DNA of 64,000 nucleotides, taken from positions 186,001-250,000 of the forward strand of contig NZ_CP108415.1 in assembly GCF_035978755.1 (NCBI RefSeq), in the 5' to 3' direction. This document shows positions 8,678 to 53,169 of the stretch, piece after piece. Made by a program: the position numbers and the translations under genes. Each line of letters starts with the position of its first letter. Position 1 is the stretch's first letter. This DNA is from Streptomyces sp. NBC_01298 (lineage in GTDB: Bacteria; Actinomycetota; Actinomycetes; Streptomycetales; Streptomycetaceae). The notes under the pieces were generated by a model. That model did no database searches. It saw only the letters and a list, made by a program, of their open reading frames with translations, and was not told the DNA's origin.

Positions 8678-8896
8678 CTAGCGGATTCCAGTGGGTGAGT
8701 GCCGGGGCAACTCGGCGTAGTGAACCTCCGTGGGCTGGCTGGTTGTCGCGCGCGCCTCATCATGGGCCTGACGCTCCTGTGAGGCGCGCCGAAGCGCGGC
8801 TCCCCGCAGTCGGCGGCGCTCCACTTCTCCTTCCCTGAGAAGTCGAAGCCCTTCCCTGAGCAGTCGAAGCCTGTCCGCTTGCTCCTGGCCTTCCAT
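8678..8896 (-). CDS. 72-aa coiled-coil protein at the end of the giant operon
   Basis: ATG 8896 follows a strong GAGGAGG site (minus strand). The protein is short and highly charged, with a heptad-like LRLLREG LRLLREG pattern near the N-terminus, probably a small amphipathic coiled coil. The DNA for this part is a 21-bp tandem repeat. It starts 22 bp after the stop of the 758-residue gene and is the last gene of the minus-strand operon. No family recognised. It may be a partner or regulator of the preceding protein, on position only. Confidence 0.55.
   Translation of the reverse strand: MEGQEQADRLRLLREGLRLLREGEVERRRLRGAALRRASQERQAHDEARATTSQPTEVHYAELPRHSPTGIR
8830..8871. repeat. 21-bp tandem duplication inside a coding heptad
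   Basis: CTTCCCTGAGAAGTCGAAGC-C at 8830-8850 is repeated at 8851-8871 with one mismatch. Each unit encodes seven residues on the minus strand, so the duplication adds exactly one heptad. Confidence 0.85.
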
Positions 8897-8918
8897 GGAA
8901 CCTCCTCGATTGAGTGAA

Positions 8919-11195
8919 TCAGCGGACGCCCGCGCTGATCGTCTGCCGCGCCTGCTGTGAGTTCTGCTGGGCTTCGTCGGCCATACGGGGATTGCCAACG
9001 GCTGCTGCCGGCGGGTTCTGAGCCGCCGCTCGGTTCTGCACGCCGTCCTTGAGGGCCTGGCTCGCCCTGAGGATCTTGTCCTGGCTTCCTTGCAGCAGGC
9101 GGGCCACCTCCTCGTCCGACAGGGTCCGAGGGTCTGGCTTGGGACCGTTGGTGAGATTGCCGGGGTGCGGACGTTCTACGGTGCGGTCGCGTCGAGGCAG
9201 TGAGGCGGCCTGCTGTCCGCCCTCGGCGGGCTGCGCCTCGGGAGGCAGGGTTGGCTGCTTGAGGGCCGCGTCGACCCCCTCCTGGTCGAATGTCGGTTCC
9301 CAGGCTCCGTCGCCAACCTGCACGACCAGCTGGCGTTCCTGAAGGGCTTCCATGAGAGCCTGCCCCTCGGCAGGGGATACCGACAGCGTCTTCACGAAGA
9401 GCTCAGGTGACGCAATCCGGTTGGCGGCCGCAGCGAGTGCGGCCCGCCTCAGCTGGTCGTCGGTAACCTGCGCGGGCGCAGGGGTAGGTGTCGACGCTTG
9501 CGCGGGTGGTGGGGCAGAGGCCGGGGCCTGTTCGGTTTCGGTTACCGGGGCAGGGGCCTGCAGCGGTGTCCCGGCAGTGGTGGGGCGGGTCGCCGTCAGG
9601 GCTGCGGGGAGCTGAGCCGGGGTGGTGGCGAGGAGTTGGCGGGGTTCAAGGCCGTTCGGGGGCCCGACGACGTTGAGGGTCTGCAGTTCGTGGAGGATTC
9701 GCTCTGCCTGGGCGTGGGTGAGGTTGAGCTCTGCGGTGCTGGCCAGGGCGAGAGGTGAGGCTGCGGTGCCCTTCTCCACAAGGTGGTGCGCGGCGGTGCG
9801 GAGCTGGGCGGGTGTGATGAGGGTTTGGGCAGCCTCGGGGGTGAGTTCGTCGGGGCCCGCGATCTCCTTGGCGAGGCGGTCGGCCACCTGGTTCAGGAAG
9901 CTGGCGTCGCGGTCATAAGGGTTGCGCTCGACGCGACGTCGGAGGGCGTCAACGAGCTCGAGGCGGGCTGCGACCGGGTTGTCCGCTCGCACGCCGGCAA
10001 CGTATTCCTTGGGCGGGAAGAAGGGCTGGGTACCCCATTCGACATCGCCCGCATCGGCTGCCAGTTCCCTTTGTACGAGCAGATGCCGGATCTGCAGTTC
10101 ACTCCGGTCTTCAGGGCGGAGGTAGAGGGACTTGAGCTCGTTGATGACGGTGCGATTCTCGTCCCAGAGAGCGTCGAGGTAGCGGTCCGGGGCGTCGACT
10201 TCGTAGTAGCCGACCTCTCGCTGCTCGTCCGGGCCGATGACCCCGCGGATGCGTTCGAGGCGCTGCTCTGCGTAGTGAAAGATGGTCGCTGCGATTGTGC
10301 GGCGGCCGTCGTTCTGCCATCCCAGCTCGTCGTAGCGGTTCATCAGCCTTCGGGCGATCCCCGAGACCATCTCGTAGGTGCGGATCTGCAGGGCCTCGAT
10401 CATGCCGTGGAGGCGGACGTCGAGGACTGCCCGGTGTCCGATGCGGCGTGCGCGTCCGCTGAGCTCGCTCAGAGAGTCGCCCAGCCTTGCCGCCTCGGCC
10501 AGGCCGCGGTCGTACAGGGCTCCGAGGCTGAGCGCGCTTTCCAGGGCGGGGTCGTCCGGGTCGTCGAGCTTGGGGTCGGTCGGCGGTCCCGGACGGGCGG
10601 CTTCGGCTCGCTGCAGTTCGCGGTTGAGCTGGTAGGCATGCGCCATCAGGAGGCGGGGCGTGTCGAGGGTCTGGCCATCATCTACGCCGGAGGCCCGGGC
10701 CGCGTGGTCCTCCGCGGCGCGGGTCAGGTAGCGCATGGCCTCGGCGCCGGGGGTGTTCGACTGGTTCCAGGTGTTGAGATAGGTCTGGATCTGGGCGGCG
10801 TGCCGGGCTATCAGGCTCGCGGCGAGTGAGGTGATCCGGGCTGCCTGTATGGCTGCCTGGGGGGTCCGCTCCGCCTGCTCGTTCAGCTCGCGGAGGACTT
10901 CGGATGCCCGCTGGTGTATCTGGTTGAGGGTGCTCCAGCCGGGCTGGTGGAAGTAGAAGGCCTGCGCCGCGTGGGCACCGGCCATCGCCGTCGCGAGGCC
11001 GGCAAGGTCCCGGGGTCCGGCCTGGGGCGCCTCAGCAACGTTGTCGAGCGCTCGGGCACGTCGCAGGCCTACCCCGAGGTTCTGCAGCCGGGCGTACCGC
11101 TCGAGCTCTGCCTCGGTCTCCGCTGCTGTGGCTCCCTGGGGGAGGGTGAGTCGGAGCATGGCTGGTGTGGGCTGGGGAGGTGCTGGCGTCGTCAT
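8919..11195 (-). CDS. 758-aa helical protein with two FtsK-gamma-like winged helices; paralogue of the giant primase C-terminus
   Basis: ATG 11195 has GAGGAG upstream that overlaps the stop of the giant primase gene, 12 bp away, so translation is probably coupled. Residues ~1-400 are long Ala/Arg/Glu-rich helices without a known family. Near residues 405-530 it reads NPVAARLELVDALRRRVE, then ITPAQLRTAAHHLVEKG and AQAERILHELQTLNVVGP. This follows the same order as the end of the giant primase (NPVAAHDMLIARLRTRVA, PPEQLRQAALIV, ADRLLHRLEAQQILGP). The last part matches the gamma winged helix of FtsK, which reads oriented DNA motifs. A second, weaker copy (QLRRAALAAAANRIASPELF) is near 575-640. 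The Pro-rich linker 530-575 separates them. Probably a DNA-binding accessory of the giant proteins; inference. Confidence 0.7.
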   Translation of the reverse strand: MTTPAPPQPTPAMLRLTLPQGATAAETEAELERYARLQNLGVGLRRARALDNVAEAPQAGPRDLAGLATAMAGAHAAQAFYFHQPGWSTLNQIHQRASEVLRELNEQAERTPQAAIQAARITSLAASLIARHAAQIQTYLNTWNQSNTPGAEAMRYLTRAAEDHAARASGVDDGQTLDTPRLLMAHAYQLNRELQRAEAARPGPPTDPKLDDPDDPALESALSLGALYDRGLAEAARLGDSLSELSGRARRIGHRAVLDVRLHGMIEALQIRTYEMVSGIARRLMNRYDELGWQNDGRRTIAATIFHYAEQRLERIRGVIGPDEQREVGYYEVDAPDRYLDALWDENRTVINELKSLYLRPEDRSELQIRHLLVQRELAADAGDVEWGTQPFFPPKEYVAGVRADNPVAARLELVDALRRRVERNPYDRDASFLNQVADRLAKEIAGPDELTPEAAQTLITPAQLRTAAHHLVEKGTAASPLALASTAELNLTHAQAERILHELQTLNVVGPPNGLEPRQLLATTPAQLPAALTATRPTTAGTPLQAPAPVTETEQAPASAPPPAQASTPTPAPAQVTDDQLRRAALAAAANRIASPELFVKTLSVSPAEGQALMEALQERQLVVQVGDGAWEPTFDQEGVDAALKQPTLPPEAQPAEGGQQAASLPRRDRTVERPHPGNLTNGPKPDPRTLSDEEVARLLQGSQDKILRASQALKDGVQNRAAAQNPPAAAVGNPRMADEAQQNSQQARQTISAGVR

Positions 11196-11207
11196 AGTTT
11201 CTCCTCG

Positions 11208-14200
11208 TCAGGACTGGCTGTGGGTGAGCCGGGTCGTCTGGGTGGCGGTGAGCGCGTTGGCTTGGGCCTCCTGGCGGGATGCGGTACGTCCAGCGCCAGC
11301 TGTGGGAGCTGGGTGGGGCTGGACGTCTGGCTGCCCGTCGGTGCGCGCTGTTTGCTCGGCCAGGAATTTGGTGACGACCTCTTCGATCTCAGCCCTGCGG
11401 CCGTTGAATTCCGTCTGAGCTGCTTCCTGGGAAGCCGTGTCGGGCGGTGTGGGGGCGGTAGGTGTAACGGGCGGGCGGGGAGCGGGGGGCCGGGGCCGCG
11501 CGGGGCGGGCGAGCAGGGCGTCGATCTCGCTGCTCTGCGCCAGCACGGTGCGGATGGTGTCGGGCCGGTACGGGCCGAGGATCTGCTGTGCCTCGAGCCG
11601 GTGGAGAAGGCGGTCTGCGCGTTCCGCTGAGATGCCCAGGCCGCGCCGCAGCGTGAGTGGTGAGGCATCGCGTCGGGCCGTGACGATGAGGGCCGCCTGT
11701 CGCAGCTGCTCGGGCGGTACAGGTCCTTCCGGGTCGGGCCCGGTGGGGATGCTGCCGATCAGGCGCTGCCGGTACGCCCAGGCCACGCCATTGAACAGGT
11801 CGGCAGTGGCGTTCCAGGGATCGCTCATCTCCCCGGTATGGGGGTCGACGTCGCGTTCCTCGGCCACTCGGGTCCGAAGCCGGGCGATGAGCATGTCGTG
11901 GGCGGCCACCGGGTTGGGGACGGGAGGTGCACCGGCGATGAGCCCGTTGTTGGGGAGGAACTCTGCGGTAGCCGGCTGGCCTGTGATCTGCTCGTACCGT
12001 GCCCGCCAGCGGGCACGATTGACGATCCACTGTTCCTGGAGATCGCCGATCTCATCCATGGTCGTTCCAGGAGCGGCCATCCGGCGCTCCAGGTCGCGCT
12101 CGGTGTGGCTGAGGTCCTGCAGTCGGCGGTCGACGCGCACGGCCCTGGACGGCTCCGTCTGACTTCTTTGGCCTCTCAGTCGAAAGACGGCACGCTCGAG
12201 GCGGTCGGCCACACCGTGGAGGCGAATCTTGCTCGCCGCGGTGGCCAGTCCCTCCAGGGCACGCACGAGGCTGGTCCTGACCCGCCCCATGAGCCTCTCG
12301 CCATCGGATCCTCGCAGCCTGCGCACCGCGGGCACGCTCGCGTCCATCTGGGCCACGAGATCAGTGATCTGCTCGTAGACGGTTCCGGGCAGGCCGATGG
12401 AGTAGGGCCGCATCGCGGCGATGGCCTCATGCGCGCTGTGGTGGGCGATGGTGAGGTCGGCCGCGATGGGAGACTCGACTGCGGTCAGCTCCGGGGATGG
12501 GTGGCCGGCTGCCTCCTGGCCCAACTGGTTGAGGACGTTCGTCTCCTGTGCGAGGTTCTCGCTGACCTGGTCCCAGGTGGACTCGGCGCCCGCGGCCTCC
12601 TGCACCCAGCCGCCGTCGTTACGCAGGACCCAGATGTGGTCGCTAGCAGCCAGGTGGTCCAAGGCGAGATCGGGGTGCCCGGCGGTGTAGATGTCCACGG
12701 CCTGCTGGGCGCGGCGCCGGGTTTCGTCGGTGCGGCCTTCATCGGATGCGGCGACTGTGTCGAGCAGTGAAGCGAAGTCTGCCGGTCCGGGCTTGTGCGG
12801 CGTGGAGGGCGACAGGATGGTCCGTACGGCCTCGCGCCATGCTTGGCTCAGCGGCGCGCCGATTTTTCCGGCCGCGGTGGCTGCACGCCATTCGACGGCA
12901 GCGAGAAATTCGGGGGGCGTCATAGCCGTGAAGCGCTGGTACGACAGGCGCAGGGCGTCCGTGCCGAGCCACACCACGATGCTGGGGTCGTCCGTCTGCT
13001 GGTCAGCGCCCGATGTGGCCAGGGCGATCCCGTGCACGCTGCCGAGTGAAAGCGGCTGGGCAACGTGTCCGGGGCTCTCCTCCTCGATCGCGTGCTGGCC
13101 GAGGCGGTCGTGGACGGCCACATAGAGGCTGTAGGCGCCGGCGTTGCGGTCAGTGAGTTCAGTCGGCGCGGCCTCGGGTGGCGGGCTTTGGAGGCTCATG
13201 GCGAAGGCCAGGGGCCCGCCTTGCGGTGCGGTAGCTGTGGCCGCGGAGACCGCGGGCCGGTTGGTTCCGACGGGCCAGTGCCCGGCACCCGTTGCTCCGG
13301 TCGTTGCGGGGGCCGCCGGGGTGGTGGCGGGTTCGGCTTCATCAGCGAAGATCGCCGACTGCCGCGACCGTACGTGCTGGTCATCTGTGAAGTAGCCGTC
13401 GGGGTCGGCGGCCAGGACATCGAGTGCTTGCTGATAGACAGCGTTTTGGTGGTCCTCGTCGTGGTTTCCGGGGCCGAGGAGCACGGCGGGAGCGACCAGG
13501 TGGCCCGGCAGCTGCCAGGACTGGTGCAGGCGCTTCGCCCAGGTGAGGGCTGCTGCCTGGAGCTCTCGGGCATCCTGCGGGGCGCGGTACTGGGTCTCCG
13601 CGGTGATGAGCTGGGCGGCCTGCGTGGCGGCCGCGCGACTGCGGGCGTTGAAGGCTCCGGCATCGAATGCGTGGTTGGCCCGTTCGCTGTCGGTGGCGAA
13701 GGCCATCAGCTGGGCCTCCACGGCAGCTTCGAGCAGGGGCTGACGCTGGTCCAGCACGCGCAGCACCGGCTCGGCACCGCCGGTACCGGCGGCGACGCCC
13801 GCCTCCCACAGGTCGGCCGCATCCTTGACGTCGTTGGCGCTGGTGACCTCGGTGGTGCCCGGCGTGGTCAGCAGCATGTCCCAGCTCTTGAGCAGGGCTC
13901 GCCGTCCTGCGGGGTCGTTGTCGCTGAACATGAGGTGGGTGCGCGGCTTTCCCTCTTGGATTCCGCGGAGCGCCGTCAGCTGGTCCTTGGTAAGGGCGGT
14001 GCCCATGGGCGCGCCGGCGACGGGGCGCTGTTCCAGCGGGAGTGCTTCTGCGGCTCGCGCCGTCGCGATGACGTCGAAGTAGCCTTCCAGGCCGACTCGG
14101 GGTCCGAGGCTGGCCTCACGCGCCTGTGCCTGAGCCGGGTGATAGAGGCCGAAGACCAGCTCGCCCTTCCGGAAGATCACCGTGTCTTCAGTGTTGAGGT

Positions 14201-25610: not shown

Positions 25611-25721
25611 GTCTTCACCTCGTCGACTACGTGGGCGGCAGGGCGGCCGCCCGCATCCCTGTGGGCTGGGCAGTTTCGATGCGACGCTACGAAGGGGTGT
25701 ATGCGGTCGGGGCTGTGCGGT

Positions 25722-25752
25722 GCCCGGCTTCCCGCCTGCCGGGAAGCCGGGC
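25722..25752 (-). terminator. Strong hairpin between the two giant genes
   Basis: GCCCGGCTTCCC (25722-25733) and its exact complement (25741-25752) form a 12-bp stem with a 7-nt loop. It begins 38 bp after the stop of the 8,819-residue gene (25790). No T-run follows, so partial termination or mRNA stabilisation is as likely as full termination. Its presence argues that the downstream gene starts at 25610, not 25772. Confidence 0.55.
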
Positions 25753-25789
25753 CGAAATTCCTTGGAGTCCATCCCTCCTTACGGATTCG

Positions 25790-46700: not shown

Positions 46701-49700
46701 CTGCCCTCAAGGCGCTGGCGGCGCATGTTGAGGCTTTCCTCTTCGAGGCGTTCGACCGCGGTGGCGAGCTTGCGGCCGCCGGGCGCGGTGGCGAGGCCAG
46801 GGTGGCTCTGCACGACGGCGGCCAGCGCTTCGGCGAGGATGCGCTCTGCGATGAGAGTGCCGAGCCGGTCGGTGTAGTGGGTGAACGCCTCCTGCTCATC
46901 CTGCTCGCCGCCGGAACCGGCCGATGCACCATCGGCCCCTCCGCCTGCGCCGCTGCTGCGGCGCGAGCGACGGGAGGATCGTCCTCCTCCTCCCCCGCCG
47001 GATCCGGCGGACACGACCACGTCCTCCGCTCCGGCCGTGGCGTAGCTGGGCACGGCTCCTTCCGGACCGGACCTGGAGGGTGCCGCCTCTGATTCCAGCT
47101 CCGCCATCAGCACGGCCAGCTCGGCCTGCGCCTTGGCCAGGTTGTCGTCGTCGTGGAAGTCGCCGCCGAGGTGCGCTTCGGCGTTCTCGATCTCGCTGAG
47201 GGCGTGGGCCCGCTCGCTCTTGGCCACGGCCAGGTCGTCTTCGAGGTGCGCGAGACGGTACTCGAGTGACTGGAGGGTGCCGGAGACGGATCCCGGCTCG
47301 TTACGGAGCTTCTTGATGTCGACGACGACGTCCTGGCCGGCGCCGAAGTTGAGGCGCAGGTCGAGGAAGTCGAGCCGGGCAAAGACAGGCACGCCGCCGA
47401 GGACGCCGACCTCGACCGGCAGATGGCCGCGCTTGCCCGTCATCTCTTCGACGGCGCCGGTCAGCGCGTAGGCCAGGGCGAAGGCCGCGTCCTTGCGCTT
47501 GGTGTAGGAGCGTCCGTCCACGCTGATGTGGAAGGCGGTGTCGCGGGTGGAGCGCCGTGTGCCGGGCGTGGTGGCGTCACCGACGATGGCCGTGAGGAGT
47601 TCGATCTTGGTCTGGAGCTGCTCCGCGCGCAGGGTCTCGGTGCGAATGGTGTACTTCAGGCCCTCCTGGGCGGCGTTGTGGGCGTGCTTGTCGGCCTCCA
47701 TGCCCAGGATCTCGTTGGTGAGCGTCCCGATGGCCATCAGGCGTGAGTCGCCGGCGCCCATGCTGACGGCTTCGAGCATGTAGTCGAGGTCGTCCATGGC
47801 GATGTCTTCAATGGTGCGGTCGGTGATCTTGCCGCTCATCAGCTGCTGGATGAACTTCGCCTTGCCCAGGACGAGCTGCCACACGTAGGCGTCGAAGCTG
47901 TTCTCGGTGACGTAGTTGTAGACGTGGACGGGCCGGCCCAGGTCGTAGTTCAGGTTCTTCTGCCGCACGACTCGGCCGTTGCGCTGGTGCAGGTCGACCG
48001 GGCGCCACGGGCAGTCCAGGTGGTGCACGGCGATGGCGCGCCGCTGCACGTTGGTTCCGGTTCCCATGGTCTCGGTGCTGCCGATGAGTACCGAGACCTT
48101 GCCGTTGCGGCAGTCGCGGAAGAGAGCGGCCTTCTCGCGGTCGCTCTTGGCTTCCTGCATGAAGCGGATGCCGTCGGTGGGCACGCCGAGGGCGGCGAGC
48201 TCCATGAAGAGCCCGTCGTAGACCGTCCACTTGCCCTGCCGGAGGGCCTCCTTGGAGGGAGTTCCGAGGTCGGCGAAGACCAGCTGGAGACTGCCAGGCA
48301 GTTCGTCGGGAACCGCGTCCTTGGGGCCCTGGTAGATGTCGTTCTTGTGCTGGTGGTAGAGGTCCGCGATCTTCTGCGCCGCGATGGAGATCTTCGTCTG
48401 CTCGTCGGGTTCGAGCGCGTAGCCGATCAGCCGCGGGTCGAGGGCGCCCTGCCGCATCCAGGAAGCGAGTTTGAGCATGTTGTCTTCGCTGGGGTCCACC
48501 GCGCGCGACCGGATGAGCGAGGCACGCCGCTTGGCCTCCTCGGCGATCTCGGCGTGCACGCTGGTGGGCGGGCAGTTCACCATCTGCGGCCCGCCGCCGA
48601 CCACCTCGGGAGTGGGAAGTCCCAGGTCTTCGGCCGTCTTGACGTCGGTGGGCACCCACCAGGCCGTCAGCAGCTCCGGCATGTTGGTGAACCGGGCGAA
48701 GCGGGACTTGGTCTGCAGGCCGCCCTCGGGCGCGATCTCGATCCTGGTGTCGACTTCGGCGTGGTTGGCGACCCAGTCGTCGAAGTTCTCCAGGCCTTCG
48801 TCTTCGAGGATGTCGGGGCGCAGCAGCTTCATCCACACGTACGCCTCGGCGATGGAGTTGACCACGGGTGTGGCCGAGGCGCCGGTGATCACGCGGGCGC
48901 CGTAGGTGCGCCGCATGTACTCGAGCTTCATGTGCAGGTCGGTCGCCCGGATCGACCCAGCGATCGACAGCCCAGCGTTGTTGCTGGGGTTGTACAGGTT
49001 CTTGAAGTTGTGGATCTCGTCGACGAACAAGTAGTCGATTCCGAGCTGCTCCCACGACAGCCCTGAATCGGCGATCGAGCGCATCCGCTGCTTGAGTGCC
49101 TGCTCACGGACGAGCTTCTTGCCCTCGACCTCCTTGACGGTGTCGTCCTTGTCGGGGTCCTCGCCCGCGGCAATGAGCTTGGCGCGCCGCCGCGACAGGT
49201 CGCGTTCGAACTCGGCAAGCTGGTTGTCGATGTACGTCTGGTGCTCGCCGGCGGAGAGCGGGATGGCCCGCATCACTCCGTAGGTCATGATGACCGCGTC
49301 CCAGTCGCCGGTGGCGGCCTTGGCGGCGAATCGTTTCCTCTTGCGCCGGGAGGAGAGGTCCTTGGTGGAGGCGGTGAGAACCTTGGCACCCGGGTAGGCC
49401 TGCAGGAACTCGCGGGTCCACTGTTCGGCCATGTGGTTGGGCACCACAATCGCCGGCTTGCGGGCCAGGCCGAGGCGGCGCAGCTCCATCGCGCCCATGG
49501 ACATCTCGAGCGTCTTTCCTGCGCCGACCTCGTGGGCGAGGAGGGCGGCCGGCTCGTTCAGGATGCGGGCGACAGCCGCGCGCTGGTGCGGGCGGGGGGT
49601 GAAGGTCGTCGACAGGCCCGGGAACGCCATCTCCGGGACGTCGTCGTAGTTCCGCAGGACGATCGAGTTGAAGCGGCTGTTGTAGAGCGAGGCGAGACTC

Positions 49701-52249
49701 TCTGCCCGCTCGGGGTCCTTCCAGAGCCAGGCGCGGAAGGCGTCGTTGAGACGGCCGGCCTGCTTGTTGGCGATGGTCGTCGCGGTCATCGCCTCAGCGC
49801 GCAGGCGTGCCTTCTGCTCGCGGGTGGCTTCCTCGGGGAAGTTCGGGACGATGCGTATGGGGCGCTGGTTGAGCAGGGCGGTCGCGAGCTGGACCGCGTT
49901 CATCTCCTCCGTGCCCCACACCTTGGTGGTCATCACGGTCTTCTCGCGACTGCTGGAGAGCGTCCAGGTGGAACCGGCGGCCCGCTCGACCTTGATCGAC
50001 TCATCGCGCAGGGTCTCGCGCAGGAACTCCTGGACGTACGGAGCCGCGACCCATGGGGCTCCGAGCTTGACCCTGATCTCCGCGGGCGGGATGTCGGCGG
50101 GCTGCACGCGGGTGAGCTCGGCGACGTTGACCTGGAAGCGAGGGTCGATGTCGGCGGCGTCCCTGGCCAGGGCGAGCTTGGTGCGGACGTTGCCCGAGAG
50201 GTAGTCGGCTGCCAGCAGCAGGCGCCCGGTATGCGGCTCCTCGAAAACGTCGGTGCCCAGTGCGTTGCGGGCCTGCTCATCGCTCTGGAGGTCGAGGAGG
50301 CGTGCGACGACGCCGAGGCGGATCTCGCCGTGCAGGTCGAGGCTGATCGCCGCGGCTTCGCCGGGCGTGCCGGCCCGGTCGGGGATCTGGCGGGGAGCGG
50401 CGACGCGCTGGGTGAAGATTTCCATCTTCCGCGCGGTGCCGGTCTCCTCGTCGTACTCCTCCAGGGCGTAGACGAGCGGGGAGTGAGGGTCGTCGGCGAA
50501 GCCGCCCTGAGGGTCCGGCACCTGCGACCAGGCCTTGAGCGCGCCGGAGTCCTTGAGTTCGGCGTAGACCTTGCGCAGGTCGGCCAGCGGCTCGCGCAGT
50601 GTGGCGGGCGCCTTCTCGGGATCCCACTTCAGCAGCAGGTCCAGGTCTTCGTCGGTATGAACGCCGTCGCCGAGGTTGTCGATGACGGCCTGCTGCTTGG
50701 ATCCCAGACGCCCGGACACGTCGAGGGCGGCCTCCATGAACTGCTCGGACAACTCCTCCGGCAGGTCATCCCAGGTCGGCTTGCGGGTGCGTTCAACGCG
50801 CTTAAAGCGGGTAATCGGCCCGTACTTGGCGACGTACTCGTCGTAGTGCACGTTGAGCTGGGAGCGCAGGAAGACCAGCCAGCCCTCGTCGGTGTCGGGA
50901 CCGGTCTCGGCGTCGAGGAGATCGGAGACCGCATCGCGGATCTTCAGAAGTGCCGCGAGCTCCTTGCGCTGGGTCTTGGGGCAGGCGTGCGGCTCGCTGT
51001 CCTGCACGCGGGCCGACCAGAACGAGCCGTCCGTCAGCTCCACGATCCGTCCGTCGAACCGAGCGGCGTCCTTGCCGAACAGCTCGTAGGCGTCCGGCCC
51101 CCGCACCTCCTCCTCGCGGCGGACCGGGTTGTCGCTCATGACGAGCCCGGCCTCCACCGCGGCCGCGATCTCCTTCGACAGGGCGCGGTCCAGGGCGGCC
51201 GCTGTGTCGCCGCCGCCGGAGACCACCTCCGGACGGTGCTTGTCGCCCCGGGCGCGACCCGGCTGCAAGGTCCCCAGCACATTCGCCGGGTGCTGAAGGA
51301 AGTAGGCGTTGACGTCCATCGGCTTGCCCTCGACCGACATCGTCTCGGTCTTGGAGAAGGCAGCCCCCCTCTTGTTGTGCGAGGGGGCCTTGCGCCGGAA
51401 CACCAGCAGGTCGGTTGCGACGTCGGTGCCGGCGGCGGCGGCGTGCGCACCGTTGGGCAGCCGGATCGCGCACACGAGGTCGGCGAGCTCGGCCATCTCC
51501 GCGCGCGCGGCCTTGGACGACTTGTCCATCGTGCCGGTGGACGTGATGAACGCTGCCACTCCACCGACGCGCACGGCCTCCAGCGCCTTGATGATGAAGT
51601 GGTCGTGCATCGGGAAGTTGCCAGGGTTGTGCCGGGCGTCGGTCAGCCGCGCTGCGTGGAAAGGGACGTTGCCGATGGCCGCGTCGTACTCCCCCGGCTT
51701 GATCCGGGTGTCCTCGAAGCCCTCGTTGCGGATCCGTGCGCCCGGGTACAGGGCCTGGCTGATGCCGGCGGTCACCGAGTCCAGCTCGACGCCCGTCATT
51801 TGCGTGCCCTCGGGCGCCATGCCGATGAACACGCCGGCACCGCTGCCGGGCTCCAGGACGCGGCCACCCGTGAAGCCCAGGGCCTGCAACGCCCGCCAGA
51901 TGATCTTCACGAACGCTGCATCTGTGTAGTGCGCGTTCAGCGTGGTGCGCCGGGCCTGCGCGTACTCCGCCTCACTCAGCAGGCCGGTGAGCTCGGCCCG
52001 GGCGGCCTCGTACTGGGCCCGGCGGCTCTTGCTGCGCTCCTTGGACGGGTCGAAGACGTTGGGCAGCGCACCCCAGGACGACCACCGCGCCAGGACCCGG
52101 CGCTCATCTTGGGTCGCGGCCCGCTCCTCGGCCTGCAGCACACGCAGGAGCCGGAGTGCCGCGAGGTTGGCTTCCAGACGAGCCATCGGCGCGGCCGGCG
52201 CGAGGTCGTTCTGGCTCTCGGGACGGAACGCCCCCTGCTCGGCCGCCAT
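25790..52249 (-). CDS. Giant 8,819-aa adenine-methylase / SNF2-helicase / UvrD-helicase fusion (DarB-like N-terminus)
   Basis: One uninterrupted 26.5-kb frame, ~0.95 MDa by residue count. Residues 56-66 WSSWGALPNVF precede an N6-adenine methylase fold: motif I VLEPGSGAGV (131-140) and motif IV NVPF (194-197) in place of NPPF/Y. An SNF2-like helicase follows: AHEVGAGKT (Walker A, 905-913), VDEIHNFKN (DExH, from 1076), GASATP, and a motif V/VI region HQRNGRVVRQKNLN. This order is that of DarB-type antirestriction methylase-helicases. Next come ~5,000 residues of helical and beta modules, several duplicated. A full UvrD/FBH1-like helicase spans ~6610-7190: QARAGTGKTTTLKG (AGTGKT 6630-6635), FFDEAQD (D6823), GDSAQAIYGFRG, ATAHKSKGLQW. 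The C-terminus ends in two tandem ~80-residue repeats. Translation is coupled to the 165-aa gene by TAATG. Confidence 0.85.
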   Translation of the reverse strand: MAAEQGAFRPESQNDLAPAAPMARLEANLAALRLLRVLQAEERAATQDERRVLARWSSWGALPNVFDPSKERSKSRRAQYEAARAELTGLLSEAEYAQARRTTLNAHYTDAAFVKIIWRALQALGFTGGRVLEPGSGAGVFIGMAPEGTQMTGVELDSVTAGISQALYPGARIRNEGFEDTRIKPGEYDAAIGNVPFHAARLTDARHNPGNFPMHDHFIIKALEAVRVGGVAAFITSTGTMDKSSKAARAEMAELADLVCAIRLPNGAHAAAAGTDVATDLLVFRRKAPSHNKRGAAFSKTETMSVEGKPMDVNAYFLQHPANVLGTLQPGRARGDKHRPEVVSGGGDTAAALDRALSKEIAAAVEAGLVMSDNPVRREEEVRGPDAYELFGKDAARFDGRIVELTDGSFWSARVQDSEPHACPKTQRKELAALLKIRDAVSDLLDAETGPDTDEGWLVFLRSQLNVHYDEYVAKYGPITRFKRVERTRKPTWDDLPEELSEQFMEAALDVSGRLGSKQQAVIDNLGDGVHTDEDLDLLLKWDPEKAPATLREPLADLRKVYAELKDSGALKAWSQVPDPQGGFADDPHSPLVYALEEYDEETGTARKMEIFTQRVAAPRQIPDRAGTPGEAAAISLDLHGEIRLGVVARLLDLQSDEQARNALGTDVFEEPHTGRLLLAADYLSGNVRTKLALARDAADIDPRFQVNVAELTRVQPADIPPAEIRVKLGAPWVAAPYVQEFLRETLRDESIKVERAAGSTWTLSSSREKTVMTTKVWGTEEMNAVQLATALLNQRPIRIVPNFPEEATREQKARLRAEAMTATTIANKQAGRLNDAFRAWLWKDPERAESLASLYNSRFNSIVLRNYDDVPEMAFPGLSTTFTPRPHQRAAVARILNEPAALLAHEVGAGKTLEMSMGAMELRRLGLARKPAIVVPNHMAEQWTREFLQAYPGAKVLTASTKDLSSRRKRKRFAAKAATGDWDAVIMTYGVMRAIPLSAGEHQTYIDNQLAEFERDLSRRRAKLIAAGEDPDKDDTVKEVEGKKLVREQALKQRMRSIADSGLSWEQLGIDYLFVDEIHNFKNLYNPSNNAGLSIAGSIRATDLHMKLEYMRRTYGARVITGASATPVVNSIAEAYVWMKLLRPDILEDEGLENFDDWVANHAEVDTRIEIAPEGGLQTKSRFARFTNMPELLTAWWVPTDVKTAEDLGLPTPEVVGGGPQMVNCPPTSVHAEIAEEAKRRASLIRSRAVDPSEDNMLKLASWMRQGALDPRLIGYALEPDEQTKISIAAQKIADLYHQHKNDIYQGPKDAVPDELPGSLQLVFADLGTPSKEALRQGKWTVYDGLFMELAALGVPTDGIRFMQEAKSDREKAALFRDCRNGKVSVLIGSTETMGTGTNVQRRAIAVHHLDCPWRPVDLHQRNGRVVRQKNLNYDLGRPVHVYNYVTENSFDAYVWQLVLGKAKFIQQLMSGKITDRTIEDIAMDDLDYMLEAVSMGAGDSRLMAIGTLTNEILGMEADKHAHNAAQEGLKYTIRTETLRAEQLQTKIELLTAIVGDATTPGTRRSTRDTAFHISVDGRSYTKRKDAAFALAYALTGAVEEMTGKRGHLPVEVGVLGGVPVFARLDFLDLRLNFGAGQDVVVDIKKLRNEPGSVSGTLQSLEYRLAHLEDDLAVAKSERAHALSEIENAEAHLGGDFHDDDNLAKAQAELAVLMAELESEAAPSRSGPEGAVPSYATAGAEDVVVSAGSGGGGGGRSSRRSRRSSGAGGGADGASAGSGGEQDEQEAFTHYTDRLGTLIAERILAEALAAVVQSHPGLATAPGGRKLATAVERLEEESLNMRRQRLEGRPLTPVASIVAPHLWRQAIAEATDALGRNPAATDLKRLDRLAALHEQRWTATLSDPAALARWEDSNEPDPDPGGAEDGREYVRLDDLSLDGKYLLGNEPMAAHALLRRLMDTSPAVLSVTSQGRHLRTRLRDGDRWEAVSNDARTTGLARRPATPTAGTAAQHSDAQDSTVPEPPQETRDMQGEPAQTPEAQPAAAPDSTPDTPAPVPAPVLPFPNQRAWSNALHQVEGASVTLLAASHQIWDLHTVPAAFNRLRHKLHAAIAAHEDRDFHDAEASLAASLTEAERLLKTLKGRDRTIMQEPLRAFSDLAKDFLARHRATLERREVEDGAAHRIDAESRAQMEEFIREWAANNQELIAALDRGDEETFRALVNAATTEETTPQASQPDPEPVPEPAPAPVVAPQPDRDTPRQPEDVRAYPRPEETWEFGDGRAQPFGTTAFDTPNSSADRLHQSYAQWTLEYGQDIAEDLQPALSAFHAEWAAAKAVPADDWASQLMAYTRAERATLRLAAHDLGGYRAAPRLRHLARTAATHTERLALTTPDLSQAWIQSLAAGWPRFHAPQEISEALEAMERAAGRTHNVDGTAKADPQLNPALLATARTPQTAAAHLAAMHNLAQAAQPKSGTLATYVGRLAATLQADPELAETACTTGPRPVAVPYRALAPAPPFATAAGAPDHKALQAAHETVTSWAKRVAAAARPHRSAAERQLAQLTQTIQRLPLGPTAGQIDAAWPHLLGAVADLARQVSKEWDDEGWSPNARQDLPALGTSAMRLARRLHTHLIETDGRLDDELAALTAEALADRQLREALGTPASPLTGYAGVPFAPAMVDWVRERAGAMSPLLKHALAADATGNGWVGAFGRLAHTVTEQATAQTPASQGGRLPVPTLWEQHAAEVDELLDHAADDERLTGWLIDNNPDEIRDTIRERVDDLVFRMVEDRTESPFSQAYFNGSFVTRDVLVSHVTAQTAQTARLAMLPEPATLYVVRRGAELVVCRGADLEQVLGDGYTLRLSANRLDGWTIGTPERKRAGTVGALADQDQALRFTAAAGHLTPDAARALLHDNQHDWPGLLQLDEPLQAALIDHAAAGSPAAASATGVVAVGAPDAEEWLVGLPAPTPYAPGAVDGTDAAAALVADVQDWLGQNGPVARSIDAWSGNAAPEAWAAAAATPPAAQDQDGWQHWLAMASAHLHLEELHTQWSSSPLTRPEPARLAELRVLLRRSDNYLARAAQRPVAAPAPAASGTEARPAAPYASVEEAVQEDARVKQWWRELVADRVGPVSIAFDHNTSPYPRIHALLGDRWHDGDPARYLAALTHASQLAMERAAIREETDPAIAQARVPDWYTVAHGLNHHTRRWAATLATAPATTREAARHIHALRLNADTVEPGMPPTSPKDMAPAYTRFLDRARELASTDLLRSQERSSERLLHHLLTLVAGEYPEPQARPELPALLNHISRIAGEVATEQADEGRRHPQLENLRTLGASAASRARTLQSALDQAHPDVERELAALAELALADQALMSTVHYTSSEAGVLPYAPALWLWLQDREDSMSPRLKRVLDGNVTPVALVGAFGALWERLLEAAPSTGTAPAPLPDAGTPVPDAWAQWPDEIAALADAASSDIDLRLRLAPGRPENQDDLVAVWTEQHAERHAQDSWPATMLAQYFDENAAPSEMLHAYLRTELVARLAAAQPSTPPDAAVEAALPAAAIRAWRLDNPRGMGESEDAYPDQAAARDGALKLAAALGNWTRAWGGEQYRAEKSIKEIADQAAAALWADALTGPIGAHPDAGRLTVQIADLASEFLVQLEDDSRNHPAAYQLTDAAYDHAARMHATTVALADGMWPTGTAIAEQQQALELAQSIARVMPASQLLRRVGADPLEATATYTAAEVYALALQPGASAPDEESGALRLAVGDDQLLLEPVGANESAAASGRRNPPGVTLQELGEAVEAISGPITTPEEARALEQALEALLTATLAHLGSHFADPQHFQATRDRLAGIRGVDGWQEQAAHAERLADTARAVRRELEDTLGRPRTRHAAVPAHHALTLLADAADSVSEKLLPNVPLARAGMQYSDESFLRDQRQISALAYLSQHLTADAEPAEETRLLAEALRIRDEHYAVGDFAGELNRHRLLAVAAQGLATAAEGNRAEWAQALHDAVRHHTDRLARHLAWTTTDGATRPARVPHKPAPAPSAPAAQTQTAAAQRELLGLVRQVVAESDNPYRVGLATVVLAALLDAETRNVAYSDHATLRAFADEALDFADSRRRNRDAGGAEIAAVAHMARSHAENLAELAEASSTLGPAVPYDGQETAATARTAAPSAASSDASGQDSAGAGEAQGPSGDAGVPAAGGNGGRDHTPPPAPGGNDEPEQPQDGPAPAFTQRRHIREPRRALSEAVRRLTQAAYFRQRSDSPGAEAEVRTALAAYSRASLEQPLAFHDAVEELTTALRALGGAWPLQDVPKDAAQALSAAVGAAGELRDRWLATAASAAWEDLFEGTPRPALNSQGEAASQNTPARAETLAAGLPGMRLTELHAVIQESVVGWGADGQPNAASSPLTAFVRLMDDPAQWQAWQDELVASGRGLWLGGPRRAEALRDVERIDPAPEGIQISTNGTAQRPAMKAVIRWAEVPAWIALGLTEGRRGELLAAAAAMEGTAPGTPEHQEAGERLDRASLEVWKAMKADGTPIATALAAAWNRYTATPAQESDSLFDLPAAEPEGGAFPNAAQWTRSTNDVITTAWDAIAHPHWPATGQTQALIEAFAAFRSATTPHDTVYSSLLLKQAAENAGLAGTLPPQLQIIMAAFTRAAARHADRMAATAWGEQWARVFPSSIALWREDPFLMPRLGYPDPRGLSPTAQSPEPLGESEAGGFEPVATPDGQPAYSVDSAPGFRLMAEPSIWHGPAYTLHAPDDQVIATLVEEGGGWHTVMGDTLPGQSADQVTVLPTQRRGHGNLQAAVLNALRVWTLDGGQPNPWPATYLDRVSLLQAFADLRGFPDALRAAGRRAWPLSFENQPALARVLDGLEQLDTGDRNSPEDTRTQDQADALERLLPDLVSLRRHLDQSGQSSSDLHALVTVLAGHANEMPARLRATAATAPTQQTVPAPAAPAPQEEAAAEEAQQSPTPTDEAEAPIAEGAEWAPEFSVPATVTQLWNTAKARGWTMTRETQGTGYSQNLVVDVEAETDRGRWAFTLRWSIRGGRFSADKMRSQARWADGRAGKRGGTVHPTITEVLNVMNQYPAVAEATEPEAAATGTETVPGAAEQLTADTAVAAGETNETAQQAAESTESVALEADEPAAPQQSPNDATEIPGMPGYWWRMDPPREYDPYSDMARDDSERITVGLGADVIGYGNSPFRNKVNWTISVGGNYQPGGRTASGSAALIAERHQALQEATQQTGPRPAEQVWIWHETTAGGRTHVYGVQDSDSDVLAELRAHNFKKAPSHGAYVQASNVSPEQRAYQTGQFVRGMLRYNRSVAVHYTQDGGAPADPTLPELGLEQRQDLDRLTRTTGGREWSPVEFKIGDHVLLAGDASWWQPVTELHTNDLSTGLHTKPYGAILALRRGHDLITAADPVGEITTARPGTSLIRDASTDILDAEAAKLDLPLADEAHRPFVEARSAQIEEARERRAGKLAARERLRLTLQSLHTDTAELKRLGGKLLSNEWGEPLGALFNNDKRSEPIEVKPKSRKWFVVDLDGRVIVARETKSAAEGDAIRFEDRLHEIAPVGWRRGAWAQVGRGSSIRVPEAGGRALTAETWSPAFTVERVERLADGSVVIDGARDGDAVTYRLSAGMAVAGPLREAVGHLALPPEAIVTRIARPALREALARPHTMVQIPMFGYATLHSAIKAVRDASDAIRSRPTPLAKLREQVASARKALLSLAEVADRDGLEEIASRARTSADLTDYWYQQLADIDAAAARLSAVTVIYPEVTDSQELEGAAALTQAAAAVTPVSDDRQEAAAGRPWTQMSPEDFDSEAAPAAQEPTAQASGQMAIDAQGAISDNTPPAGAPTELSDYDALLLGGRARAEGLAARASLAEHTSDGPAVTRVLLDGEQIGAVTARPDGSYIATGIDGASRREPFESKVGAAAAVVEDFDIREANREEQAGLTPQAAALEQQALTPPEELPADAQPLPDRPGYHQAIGHEHTVVYGPDNAVVGQVENRAFGQGKHRTTYADQPVTPRDTVARSVDHLADIHATLNGPTKNFEHRKVWIEHHPDHTRVWGVSHEHRFLVFALEVAGGPRGFNRQKTSPDPRSGLYCHTMPANMSLKTRTQRVEALRALAAGRGRELPVFESRTAREEADGVTETPMVAPVNAALRFTAIPQIGSGEPFTQTRDVLGLLGELRSEYNRGLRYSPEWQRMLSATPDGRADARRLEAALESVRDQGLFAVVQPTTVALALELARATTAVQDRLLAEGERTLHGRVANIGLLATQLAERTVATVQLPDTWQTVFKTTVADDSPLSDYQRVRAIAKLHWWTVTGSGFETIEGTHAAQGFMNVQRIMLNELPETVDSFQEAGQRLDTLLAAVSSLHQVLRDLPAHSHPDIEAALREMSTQARLAINNLRTTSPATRRAKPDDAITATERQAPEAPTQEQGRGPNDDVQDAGVDSQGRPRTYERVPLAGGGWEIFLFQASGGSSLCTLTQDTDGFRAQYSGVEGRGSTWREAVAAYVDAQQVANELRAGATPQPLDVTAPVNREAEAEQREADNLTPRVVLPAAAEGAPSDDEWAAIDTAARAQEAFAPTRQQELIYEATAGRGLDVAVQARAGTGKTTTLKGIARRMPGKRIVYLAFGRAVADEAKQAKAKGEFPRNVEPMTANAMAMRAVGDPFKHRMPNDEKDNRYKRQPPAEVANLFGVPDLKVGKGRLRREQGAYRARGLVDAWCLSNDAEMGPEHVELADWMVEEGWTQKQLFGVLKPWAEQMWADITNPAGRLTYSHDYIVKQWALAGYAIDADVIFFDEAQDINPVMDGVVRAASASGVQTIVVGDSAQAIYGFRGAEDSLQNFPVDVTLPLTESHRFGPAVADIANRFLHLAGERPDLVGTERQASRLDKLQVADAVLVRTNADVVAETLAALDAGKRVAVIGGLDDIAKIVRAARDLQEGKKTFHQDLAGFATWDEVVNFVEEHKKAAGSFRTLVRLIDDDESGKLDRLIAAAGLLSQRIQITREEGSLYLYGTDWEDLELRDWLKERRRNGFGKFYYDKPNTRWRFDPSWRSHQGVDLDDVEAAVRAFIGDMDADLQADYSDEPGEIVGQHASPDVVIATAHKSKGLQWQSVRIAGDWRTPDYVDGRIDPETIPEPEELRLQYVTVTRAQEVLDAGPLSYIFDAVPDEDLARALPPGHSLVPAPRPTAVTPSAPAADAAAATPASPDTPPAQETFKVVKPAEAKALSGPDDTLWWGGRAAGREKALKKPIRARLTIGARGVVDVKNAATGEHIDRIRTGTPFFAAPVAHQTDPAATPTPDTPRPESAQPATTTTPPEPASSPAFQVRDQATSAGRRWAVVDAATGEVVWVSQGATPTACLYDVKADADGMLEALVLAPDLRTEAPARPELDTEVSRAGDVLPPTLGRVIAKVSHDTSLWVKVEIPTEAGTTRVVTLWNPAGAGLVQVGQSVYASGTLGEPGVFRGRTETPVEGGTVEGEEAAHDRLHRAAAAPDGWMPADPAVLAEQLHIGDRVRIVDAHHPAHAVGDADDYELELLYSTVTILSTDGDEYTATAGDGRTVTFTLDDVAAVPATSAPTTTPKEQAEDVAQGQDVTAGLFDDLRKLPYAQRSNRWSPEELQPNSDRRVEVLLRTGEWTQVAACNQHNLRDSRGRFHGLEEVMAWRDGTQLVTLLDQPNITGEEPQNHPAPSAAQQPAPRPPLISRPVQSMLAEELEERARLLDEWINEHTPSGDTGLSVRAVQQRDQMRAELTHRRNQEADAAKASDWNGFSDELGDLDLEPVDLFGSIQEVRRDGTLLGTVTVDSNGYRFQATGARAADNTLYDSPEGAAVALARQVDTPPSAPAPAPAPPARKRRKPPAGPAPRFLVTAEDGPDASPNMLLKAHLRSRRVDPADPDQLGQRKLTEDCHRHGAEHAGTHLSKGGRLAILTIGAENYELRAPDRLTKVFGPWGVKIRTRERANAIAAALESIRDEQGRIFPWDAPHVIPRGMHFRDQDGNDMVTAIRRALVLHGLDEPDGRYARAYEKQTGKRLEAPELPAADPEPAPVERDPAAPEDDVFDITTVKRLGEIAGPDGTFWWKGEVSNPRQGTGPRTNLLPLTVPRRVRVAESDDEKGASIGWFKVLDADTGEHFDNIRSTSYVLVAAPRDLANDDDEDRRRSAGQRFSSVGQVRTYLVGPATIKGISGQRRSELRRLAKNRELVELTADGQFVIRQTGETYEVIPVGSGLDFDGMLPDLYLTPRVRDAFEVTPQPLGNLPSLEEAHAFAARVVQLTDTAGQRIDWSDPALALRLTSAGIAHMGHQLLRERALFDRENGRDDSPSDAMWKLFEPRPERAAEPEADHRWADQLTERDWAWLFIDDRKPREIISTTPTELGTVILTLDDDSTWHFPQNMPVEHPGDSIVLDSTGQPIGLSIDRAWVSDDDLIEFDIDADLLPSSPASADADPATGVTRVRGRAKVTHQHPHGGGERTYLLDATLVSGDNVRPAPVDIVTAAFELPPTVHRLSARAPLAPQAASSATPVARPIPRPHHEPEAPTAADLQDPAQETNAPRFHGLAEGEALRQSLIDLIDDPEAPATPTEHAVLDGTPLYVRVTNSPTNGRILQFGFDPTAPQAAAHFTRSDLGGATARQILHAILTRRPQEPRPEPGPIQAEQIRADFLRLLDNPAAPVEPTLHGTLNGVLPVYVAVTPDPQHHEVVRFGFDPSGPAAAQFTRAELQGTSNDKIIAGIERYGAVHVQHALQASRVLSQFKAGAKARQASRPQGPFVQLDGQENREHMRQSTNAQSMR
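25960..26475 (-). repeat. Tandem ~80-residue repeat at the C-terminus of the 8,819-aa protein
   Basis: Copy 1 (26245-26475): SLIDLIDDPEAPATPTEH, LDGTPLYVRVTN, LQFGFDPTAPQAAAHFTRSD. Copy 2 (25960-26196): DFLRLLDNPAAPVEPTLHG, LNGVLPVYVAVTP, VRFGFDPSGPAAAQFTRAEL. The two are adjacent with a short Pro/Glu linker. Probably a small alpha/beta domain; function unknown. Confidence 0.75.
27722..30495 (-). repeat. Duplicated W-W-x-G / TGEH beta module after the UvrD helicase
   Basis: First copy (30303-30495): DDTLWWGGRAAG, VVDVKNAATGEHIDRIRTG, PFFAAP. Second copy (27722-27955): DGTFWWKGEVS, GWFKVLDADTGEHFDNIRST, YVLVAAP. Order and spacing are kept, so these are copies of one small beta-rich domain, not recognised by name. 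Confidence 0.65.
33800..36750 (-). repeat. Two related PGY...W-I-x-H domains (DUF3560-like) in the 8,819-aa protein
   Basis: Copy nearer the N-terminus (~36280-36750): MPGYWWRMDPP, ADVIGYGNSPFRNK, QVWIWHETTAGGRTHVYGVQ, APSHGAYVQASN. Second copy (~33800-34290): RPGYHQAIGHEHTVVYGPDN, VENRAFGQGKHR, KVWIEHHPDHTRVWGV, SGLYCHTMPANM. The 'V-W-I-x-H ... T-x-V-x-G-V ... G-x-Y' pattern resembles the N-terminal part of actinobacterial DUF3560-containing proteins. Homology between the copies is clear in order; the family assignment is tentative. Confidence 0.45.
41627..44545 (-). repeat. Duplicated ~270-residue helical module inside the 8,819-aa protein
   Basis: Unit A (43773-44545) and unit B (41627-42420) align over their length: DLARQVSKEWDDEGW / EVATEQADEGR; DDELAALTAEALADRQL / ERELAALAELALADQAL; VPFAPAMVDWVRERAGAMSP / LPYAPALWLWLQDREDSMSP; GWVGAFGRL / ALVGAFGAL; SPFSQAYFNGSFVTRDVL / SWPATMLAQYFDENAAPSEML. 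About 1.35 kb of other sequence separates them. The protein has therefore grown by internal duplication. Confidence 0.75.
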
Positions 52250-52746
52250 TACAGCAGTCCCTCGGAGCGCAGGGCCTCATCCGACAGGCCAGCCAGTTCC
52301 AGCAGCCGCGGAACGGCTCCGGCGCGCAGTCGCGCCCTCTCCTCAGCGCTGAACGCCGCAGCCCGGGTCCGTCCCGCGATCAATTCCAGGAGGTGGAACT
52401 CACGCCACTGCTCCTCGTCAAGTTCCTCCGGTGACAGGAACGGGTCGTCGCCCATGCCCGGGTCGTTGTCGGCTGGCAGGAGCACGAGCTCGCGAAGGAC
52501 CTCGCCCTCGATCTCCCACCTCGACTGGGTGAGACGGGCCAGCCGCTCCAGGTGGGACTCCCCCACCACGGTCGAGACAGCCATGCGCTGGCTCGTCCAG
52601 CGCTCCTGTACCTCACGCTGGACATCCACGCCGAGCGAGGTGAAGAACTCTTCAGGGTTCGCCAGCTCGGCAACATGCTGGGGGCGGTGGTCCTGCCAGT
52701 GCTGCTCCGCGATCCGCCCGTACTGATTCACTCCACCACTCCCCAC
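52249..52746 (-). CDS. 165-aa protein heading the giant operon
   Basis: An acidic, helical cytosolic protein I do not recognise. The annotated GTG at 52746 lacks an SD; GTG 52731 (MNQYGRIAEQHWQDHRPQHV) has GGGAG at better spacing and may be the true start. Segments QYGRIAEQHWQDHRPQHVAE and NPEEFFTSLGVDVQREVQE suggest a small conserved module, followed by PADNDPGMGDDPFLSPEELD. Its TAA overlaps the ATG of the 8,819-residue gene by one base (TAATG), so the two are translationally coupled and the product is probably made in step with the giant protein, as an N-terminal partner or chaperone. First gene of the minus-strand operon; the promoter should lie in 52747-53000. Confidence 0.6.
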   Translation of the reverse strand: MGSGGVNQYGRIAEQHWQDHRPQHVAELANPEEFFTSLGVDVQREVQERWTSQRMAVSTVVGESHLERLARLTQSRWEIEGEVLRELVLLPADNDPGMGDDPFLSPEELDEEQWREFHLLELIAGRTRAAAFSAEERARLRAGAVPRLLELAGLSDEALRSEGLL

Positions 52747-53030
52747 GTCCCGTGGGCAGCGCAGAGGTACCAGTTCTCTTGCAGTTCCTTCCTGCGCTAC
52801 CAGAGCCGATGGTTCGAGTTGAGCGGCGCCCCGAACGAAGTGGAGACGCTAGGTTCCGCCGGGCGGGAACCGAGTCCCCATGATCTTGTTGGCGCTCCCT
52901 TCCTGCGGAATGGGTGACGGACGAACCCTGGTCACAGAGCGCGGCCGAAAGGGCGCGTTCGTGTGTCGGGAGCGGGTTCGAGAATCAGGCTGGTCTTGGT
53001 CGTTGGCAACCTGCTAGCCGGTGGATATCC

Positions 53031-53169
53031 CAGGGGCGCTGCCCCTGGACCCCGCCAGGGGCGAGCGGCCCCTGGACCCGCAGCGCGGGGGCCAGCCCCC
53101 GACCCCGTCAGGGGGCGTTGCCCCCTGCACCCCCCGCTGGGGGCCTACTCGCCCCCCAGACCCCCAGCG
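53031..53169. repeat. Array of four GC-rich hairpins
   Basis: In 140 bp: CAGGGGC-gct-GCCCCTG (53031-53047), GCCCCTGG-accccg-CCAGGGGC (53041-53062), CAGGGGGC-gtt-GCCCCCTG (53109-53127) and CGCTGGGGG / CCCCCAGCG (53135-53143 and 53161-53169). The first two share an arm and are mutually exclusive. All arms are perfect. Similar GGGGC-GCT-GCCCC arrays occur in actinobacterial plasmids, but no role is established here; terminator, structured RNA or replication element are all possible. Confidence 0.7.

Follow-up and report, generated by a model that had tools for sequence, protein, structure and literature searches.

The plasmid operon analysed here encodes two giant multidomain proteins in a conserved gene order, and its content and setting make it probable that these are polyvalent proteins linked to conjugation, which would protect, open and prime incoming plasmid DNA. 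The window, the whole stretch of 64,000 bases that was analysed, corresponds to positions 186001-250000 of the 358,856-bp contig C2 in the 9.70-Mb, five-contig genome of Streptomyces sp. NBC_01298. Five open frames on the minus strand (8678-52746, window coordinates, as below unless a contig or locus is named) encode, from 5′ to 3′, proteins of 165 aa (52249-52746), 8,819 aa (giant 1, 25790-52249), 4,854 aa (giant 2, 11208-25772), 758 aa (8919-11195) and 72 aa (8678-8896, with the C-terminal end HYAELPRHSPTGIR). The initial annotation had placed five genes on one strand here, and all five frames are open, its "~4,800-aa" protein having exactly 4,854 residues. The junctions it gave were also borne out, namely the one-base TAATG stop/start overlap between the 165-aa gene and giant 1 and the gaps of 12 and 22 bases before the 758-aa and 72-aa genes; the gap between the two giants is 17 bases. 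The sequence AAGGAGG precedes giant 2, GAGGAG precedes the 758-aa gene and GAGGAGG the 72-aa gene. A sigma-70-type promoter had no match in window positions 52200-54200, a result that is weakly informative at such GC content.

Giant 1 joins predicted DarB-like adenine methylase, SNF2 translocase and UvrD helicase domains in one chain. Residues 18-1488 (47786-52198) match PHROG 10089, a family annotated as "DarB-like antirestriction", with 1,146 bits. This dyad contains the adenine methylase core (residues ~100-290, 51380-51952), with the motif I LEPGSGAG and the motif IV GNVPF, followed by the first half of the SNF2 ATPase (residues 899-1165, 48755-49555; Pfam, 6.4e-10; Walker A GAGKT and DEIH) and Helicase_C (residues 1366-1430, 47960-48154; Pfam, 3.8e-6). 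Because the methylase scores below the Pfam cut-offs, its assignment is based on PHROG, the motifs and an alignment with 10 relatives. Motif IV reads NVPF and not NPP(Y/F); NVPF is also found in 105 of 120 related giants, and N194 and P196 are invariant across the 11 aligned sequences. The UvrD-like helicase lies much further along (residues ~6608-7181, 30707-32428; Pfam, 7.5e-11; GTGKT and DEAQD). The methylase fold, SNF2-like translocase and UvrD-like helicase proposed initially are supported by these matches and motifs. The approximately 5,000 residues between the two helicases contain no Pfam domain at the thresholds used, and a PDB sequence search with residues 1-1500 returned no match. 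Profile comparison did identify a duplicated module (copy 1, residues 2530-2774, 43928-44662; copy 2, residues 3248-3494, 41768-42508; E 6.5e-39), as well as a module of unknown fold at residues 8227-8581 (26507-27571) that is shared with residues 2501-2895 of giant 2 (17088-18272; E 6.3e-10 and 1.4e-5). No peptidase domain that might process the giants was found by Pfam in either of them.

Giant 2 encodes a putative DnaG-type primase core with a Toprim domain (residues 3715-4031, 13680-14630; EGYFDV and DNDPAG). It matches Pfam DNAG_N (2.7e-28), the TIGR01391 DnaG model (2.5e-41, below its equivalog cut-off) and the DnaG structure 5w33 in the PDB (5.3e-25), and the acidic residues of the primase (E and DxD) are aligned in 6 of the 7 plasmids compared, counting the one in the window. 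The giant 2 of Streptomyces chartreusis (L034:4380-16982) keeps its place in the operon but has lost the second Toprim acidic motif, its DxD reading DTN, so that this primase is probably inactive. No CxxC for a zinc-binding primase domain occurs in giant 2 of the seven plasmids as read, which makes it a primase core and not a standard DnaG. There were likewise no matches to D[FWYH]N[DE], representing the DaN- motif (D, aromatic, N, acidic), in giant 2 of the seven plasmids, and giant 2 has one HExxH (HEVAH). The DnaG-type primase of the initial annotation thus stands, in a form that lacks the zinc-binding CxxC. Its description of the operon as most of a replisome was an overstatement, since family searches found no polymerase or clamp and the CxxC is missing.

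The C-terminal part of giant 2 is homologous to the 758-aa protein (11412-12206; E 3.8e-16 to residues 311-569 of the latter), contains an FtsK-gamma-like match at residues 4689-4745, and ends in a tail with an EAxxNA motif (11211-11270). The 758-aa protein has the winged-helix fold of the FtsK gamma type (compared with 2ve8 and 2ve9), present as two FtsK-gamma-like winged helices at residues 459-527 (9615-9821) and 579-638 (9282-9461), although no FtsK motor was found here. FtsK_gamma scores of 6.9e-5 and 7.5e-5 are both under the Pfam cut-off, and a plain Foldseek search with the model of the 758-aa protein gave no E below 0.001. The DNA readers of FtsK-gamma type that had been proposed are supported as "FtsK-gamma-like" domains, at the end of giant 2 and in the two winged helices of the 758-aa protein. 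The closest homologue of the 758-aa protein is 98% identical and comes from a Streptomyces. Protein database searches that scored only the candidates sharing most words gave 78 relatives of the 758-aa protein and 59 of giant 2, and the named organisms were all Streptomyces. Forty-one contigs matched by size appear in both lists, which suggests that the two genes occur together in relatives. Among 21 genomes searched, the 758-aa protein was present in Streptomyces sp. NBC_01298 alone, and a profile scan of named genomes gave pattern matches with no relative confirmed.

The gene order giant 1, giant 2, 758-aa gene is conserved across large linear plasmids, judging from their sequences. A tblastn search with the 758-aa protein matched 7 of 72,556 plasmids, all of them linear and of 259-939 kb, and in 6 of these 7 public plasmids the three genes are adjacent and in this order. 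The six plasmids with the trio span 321-939 kb and come from Streptomyces microflavus, NBC_00015, NBC_01281, NBC_00470, Actinacidiphila glaucinigra and S. chartreusis. In the seventh, from NBC_00073, the stretch seen holds only a C-terminal remnant of the 758-aa gene and a gene of the 72-aa type; the same plasmid (L035:16946-32066) carries a type I-E CRISPR-Cas set. The counterparts of giant 1 have 8,746-10,905 residues as annotated and those of giant 2 have 3,719-4,854 as read, two of the latter having been extended upstream of the annotated start in the same open frame. In this connection, the primase giants at L003:7006-18171 and L004:32336-44935 have about 2 kb of open frame without annotation upstream of their annotated starts. 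Giant 1 aligns with its six relatives over 75-96% of residues at 25-53% identity and giant 2 over 64-78% at 28-46% identity, the S. chartreusis alignment at 25% identity including chance parts. At least four of the six relatives align in every 200-residue block except the last block of giant 1. Giant 1 also belongs to a far wider family, as its first 1,416 residues match 1,962 of 72,556 plasmid records and 120 of 50,697 phage records; 1,960 of the plasmid matches are below 60% identity, and the best two, both on linear Streptomyces plasmids, reach 79%. Among the best 120 of 826 relatives, two (P0007, 7,994 aa, and P0120, 6,984 aa) join the DarB-like region to a DnaG domain, recognized by precomputed Pfam matches, within a single polypeptide.

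These comparisons also bear on the reality of the giant frames. Long antisense frames of up to 1,227 aa exist in the window, as would be expected if the giant frames were an artefact of GC bias or assembly error, but that explanation can be regarded as already refuted. Six other complete plasmids have single-gene counterparts, which rules out the assembly error that had been named at the outset as one of two findings against the reading, and pN/pS against NBC_00015 is below 1 in the blocks computed (0.29-0.92 for giant 1 and 0.44-0.81 for giant 2, in 400-residue blocks with one end block of 13 aligned residues left out).

The small flanking genes were found in most of these plasmids. The initial annotation had suggested looking for the same five-gene order on actinobacterial plasmids, and the trio keeps its order in six of seven. 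In 5 of 7 public plasmids, a small frame ending in TGIR was found close to the 758-aa gene or to what remains of it, NBC_01281 being covered by 641 bases downstream only. Five of the six trio plasmids have an annotated relative of the 165-aa gene upstream of giant 1, and in S. chartreusis the tblastn match for it falls inside the annotated giant in another frame. Fusion of the small gene to the giant, considered for S. chartreusis and Micromonospora NBC_00821, was rejected for that reason, as the tblastn matches overlap the giant but the frame differs. Relatives of the 165-aa gene also immediately precede the DarB-like gene in other actinobacterial plasmids, based on positions compared among the matches listed (40 of 1,962 and 40 of 59). 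Some of these are annotated as "TnpV protein", an identity that we did not adopt for the 165-aa protein, which has no Pfam match and of which one relative reaches E 0.04, below the cut-off.

Contig C2 is a linear, probably conjugative plasmid of a Streptomyces-type bacterium. It has terminal inverted repeats of about 60 kb (C2 15204-75206 and 298853-358856), and its leftmost 15.2 kb (C2 9-15194) is a further inverted copy that is probably an assembly fold-back. A type IV secretion system (T4SS)-like module at C2 101412-111201 comprises M23 peptidase, SCO6880-type, ATP/GTP-binding and VirD4-like genes in the order seen in S. microflavus (tblastn), and a MobF relaxase gene is present in both terminal repeats (tblastn with S. 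microflavus plasmid genes). MobF was found in all six trio plasmids and is also common elsewhere, with 1,925 records matching. All seven plasmids bearing the 758-aa gene are classed as non-mobilizable by PLSDB MOB typing. The VirD4-like query matched 548 plasmids, but only 7 reach 60% identity, and these are the six trio plasmids (73.9-88.5%) and one from Kitasatospora NBC_01519 (62.2%); the remaining rows among the best 40 of 548 have at most 34.9%. The operon set thus co-occurs with one clade of predicted VirD4-like coupling protein. The Kitasatospora plasmid has a 4,130-codon frame, cut at the edge, around a primase-like match. At L029:10384-13236, beside the T4SS-like module there, are two cysteine-free hypothetical proteins of 381 and 557 aa, which are possible exported parts.

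All five operon proteins are poor in cysteine. Giant 1 has 13 in 8,819 residues, giant 2 has 4 in 4,854 and the other three proteins have none. The two giants together contain 17 cysteines in 13,673 residues versus about 112 expected (72 in giant 1 and 40 in giant 2) at a baseline of 0.82%, which derives from 62 annotated S. microflavus plasmid proteins hand-picked from 324 features; 2 of these 62 controls are at or below 0.15%. In the NBC_01298 genome, the corresponding values are 0.71% for eight UvrD frames and 0.84% for sixteen of ketosynthases. Among the 120 related giants listed, 47 have a phage-type end like that of a giant at locus L007, with a median of 0.00% cysteine (0.00-0.05), and the other 73 have a median of 0.18% (0.00-0.68); the 47 were grouped by likeness of their ends, and genome context is known for the L007 giant alone. 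Phage proteins give a similar picture, as the N4 virion polymerase (3,500 aa) and the DarB-like giants of BcepIL02 (4,667 aa) and VvAW1 (3,640 aa) have no cysteine, compared with 0.41-0.55% in 7-11 other proteins of these phages. There are counter-cases, however. Four chromosomal SNF2 frames of the NBC_01298 genome are also low (0.35%), P1 DarB has 9 cysteines in 2,255 residues (0.40%, against 0.71% in other P1 proteins), and the S. chartreusis giant 1 has 0.41%. In work on N4-like phages, the lack of cysteine is tied to passage through the tail during injection (PMC3915230), a second N4-like phage paper also remarks on it (PMC4837373), and unfolding is required of T4SS substrates (PMC5826034).

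Giant 2 and the 758-aa protein also share a C-terminal motif. Of 59 giant-2 relatives, 56 have the pattern [EQ]AxxNA within their C-terminal 30 residues, as do 62 of 78 relatives of the 758-aa protein. None of the 62 control proteins has it, and the bodies of giant and 758-aa proteins contain it only 9 times in a total of 100,339 residues. Similarity is higher over the last 20 columns than over the linker that precedes them (0.71 versus 0.42 and 0.64 versus 0.51). In the window, the 758-aa tail (8922-8981) reads EAQQNS, in place of the EAxxNA usual in its homologues. A tail common to all five proteins was considered and rejected, as it is common to giant 2 and the 758-aa protein only. Giant 1 has no conserved tail in the six trio plasmids, its last 25 columns scoring 0.25 versus 0.33 before them. 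The EAxxNA tails may be transfer signals, and the sharing of the motif may partly reflect common descent, since the C-terminal part of giant 2 is homologous to the 758-aa protein. Other ends recur in the wider family: LLGLLATR is the exact end of 44 of the 120 listed giants, many of them ending in DDDLRAFLLGLLATR, and could be a packaging signal, and a tail of the NAPS..R type ends another 15 of 120.

Giant 1 is the same kind of protein as the polyvalent proteins of conjugative elements and phages defined by Iyer et al. in 2017 (PMC5512222). In keeping with that definition, giant 1 and giant 2 each have at least two domains of unrelated activity in one chain, the element has, by its sequence, a T4SS-like module and MobF on C2, and an adenine methylase is fused to SWI2/SNF2 (PHROG 10089 and Pfam SNF2). 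The same paper describes a 12,242-aa protein from a Streptomyces viridifaciens plasmid with SNF2 and UvrD helicases, which giant 1 resembles as a giant plasmid-encoded multidomain chain with a methylase-SNF2 dyad and UvrD, and it suggests transferred single strands as the substrate of UvrD. Also listed there are Toprim primases and FtsK winged helices. The present operon differs in dividing the work among two giants and three small proteins, with the genes in a fixed order, and in a primase that is close to cellular DnaG and without the DaN- motif. In the main text of that paper (PMC5512222), "cysteine" and "secretion signal" do not occur. Another close comparison is DarB of phage P1, which likewise has a methylase followed by an SNF2-type helicase, giant 1 matching the DarB-like family PHROG 10089, but DarB is a virion component (PMC5512222) of 2,255 aa, whereas giant 1 has 8,819 aa, contains UvrD and belongs to a plasmid with a T4SS-like module and MobF. 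Transferred conjugative primases of the TraC1 type (PMC5512222) share with giant 2 a primase core encoded on a plasmid with transfer genes. They differ in that giant 2 has 4,854 aa, a DnaG-type core without CxxC and an FtsK-gamma-like end, and its transfer is only inferred. The N4 virion RNA polymerase is also very large and cysteine-free (PMC3915230), but is an RNA polymerase injected by a phage. A 2024 paper on leading regions reports that orphan methylases are enriched there, and "primase" does not occur in its available text (PMC11541004). The statement that no described system has this arrangement therefore fails for giant 1, and most of the initial interpretation repeats an idea already in print. 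For the whole operon the statement may hold, no description of it having been found in the literature searched, with subscription journals mostly outside that search. The conserved gene set, the link to a coupling protein, the cysteine depletion and the shared tail were not found described and look new.

The machine proposed initially, which would protect, open and prime DNA at its entry, fits the linear plasmid, MobF, the T4SS-like module, the DarB-like N-terminus, the gene order and the coupling-protein clade, although for giant 1 it is not novel. During mating, the UvrD helicase of giant 1 and the primase of giant 2 would unwind the plasmid strand and restart it in the recipient. The SNF2-driven methylase would mark the new duplex, which would be spared by restriction enzymes, as DarB does for phage P1 DNA. 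A further step is less sure, in which the giants and the 758-aa protein would be threaded unfolded through the T4SS-like channel along with the DNA. The cysteine depletion, together with the C-terminal motif of giant 2 and the 758-aa protein, is what suggests that these proteins are perhaps transferred themselves. That the two giants and the 758-aa protein travel with the DNA, being cysteine-poor so as to unfold, with EAxxNA as a loading signal for the VirD4-like clade, is a tentative proposal that we consider possible but would not expect to hold in its entirety.

Alternatively, the operon could have a vegetative role, in which it helps to replicate or partition the linear plasmid within the host and takes no part in transfer. 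FtsK-gamma domains orient DNA, the operon contains primase and helicase domains, and near it a ParA-like gene precedes a candidate ParB-like partner (55383-57262), with ParA genes 2-10 kb away in three relatives. We find this unlikely, as C2 encodes its own separate primase-polymerase and P4-type primase in both terminal repeats, and neither the cysteine depletion nor the coupling-protein link would be expected under it; methylase-SNF2 dyads are moreover typical of mobile elements (PMC5512222). A role in host-side defence, with a giant restricting or excluding rival elements as DISARM or BREX do, is very unlikely. PADLOC, in a scan of giant 2 and the first half of giant 1, gave partial matches in giant 1 (BrxHI, 53.5 bits; mad2, 44.6; DrmD, 37.7) and in the primase region of giant 2 (RT_UG29, 47.6 bits), and NCBIfam gave matches to DrmD and an anti-phage helicase. 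The PADLOC matches span single helicase, methylase or primase stretches, however, and those of NCBIfam are far below their cut-offs (36 versus 610 bits for DrmD and 50.9 versus 1,100 bits for the other). No helicase belonged to DISARM or BREX at the family level, and the best family match is to DarB-like antirestriction (PHROG 10089).

Likeness to phage proteins raises one more explanation, that C2 is a phage-plasmid and that its giants belong to the virion, from which they would be ejected along with the phage DNA. A cysteine-free DarB-like giant of 6,289 aa (L007:16596-35465) does lie between portal and capsid genes, and many related giants share its C-terminal end. Giant 1 is without that end, however, and C2 has a T4SS-like module and MobF. 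The NBC_01298 genome has no match to the PF04860 portal family, its sole PF03354 TerL match is on contig C1 and not on C2, and the S. microflavus relative has no annotated portal, capsid or terminase at 72000-371900, a stretch with many hypothetical genes. We therefore give this explanation hardly any credence. The L007 locus itself is on a 131-kb linear Streptomyces plasmid that is likely a phage-plasmid.

If the conjugation-linked reading and the accompanying transfer of proteins are true, the near absence of cysteine could characterize envelope-crossing polyvalent proteins in general. With cysteine depletion and the shared C-terminal motif, the polyvalent-protein prediction of 2017 becomes measurable, and the operon offers a defined, conserved gene set with which to ask whether conjugation delivers enormous proteins besides DNA. 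The operon suggests, too, a way in which the large linear plasmids of Streptomycetaceae may evade restriction.

Two features flank the operon. Between it and a plus-strand frame are five copies of a 23-nt palindromic repeat of the AAACTTCGGCTGAGCCGAAGTTT type (53622-53951), which are iteron- or operator-like in appearance; a conserved operator was considered and rejected, with 3 matches on C2 and none in the seven relative loci scanned. Past the other end of the operon, on the plus strand (4245-8601), are frames that by eye resemble NUDIX, nucleotide-sugar epimerase and MurA/EPSP-synthase proteins.
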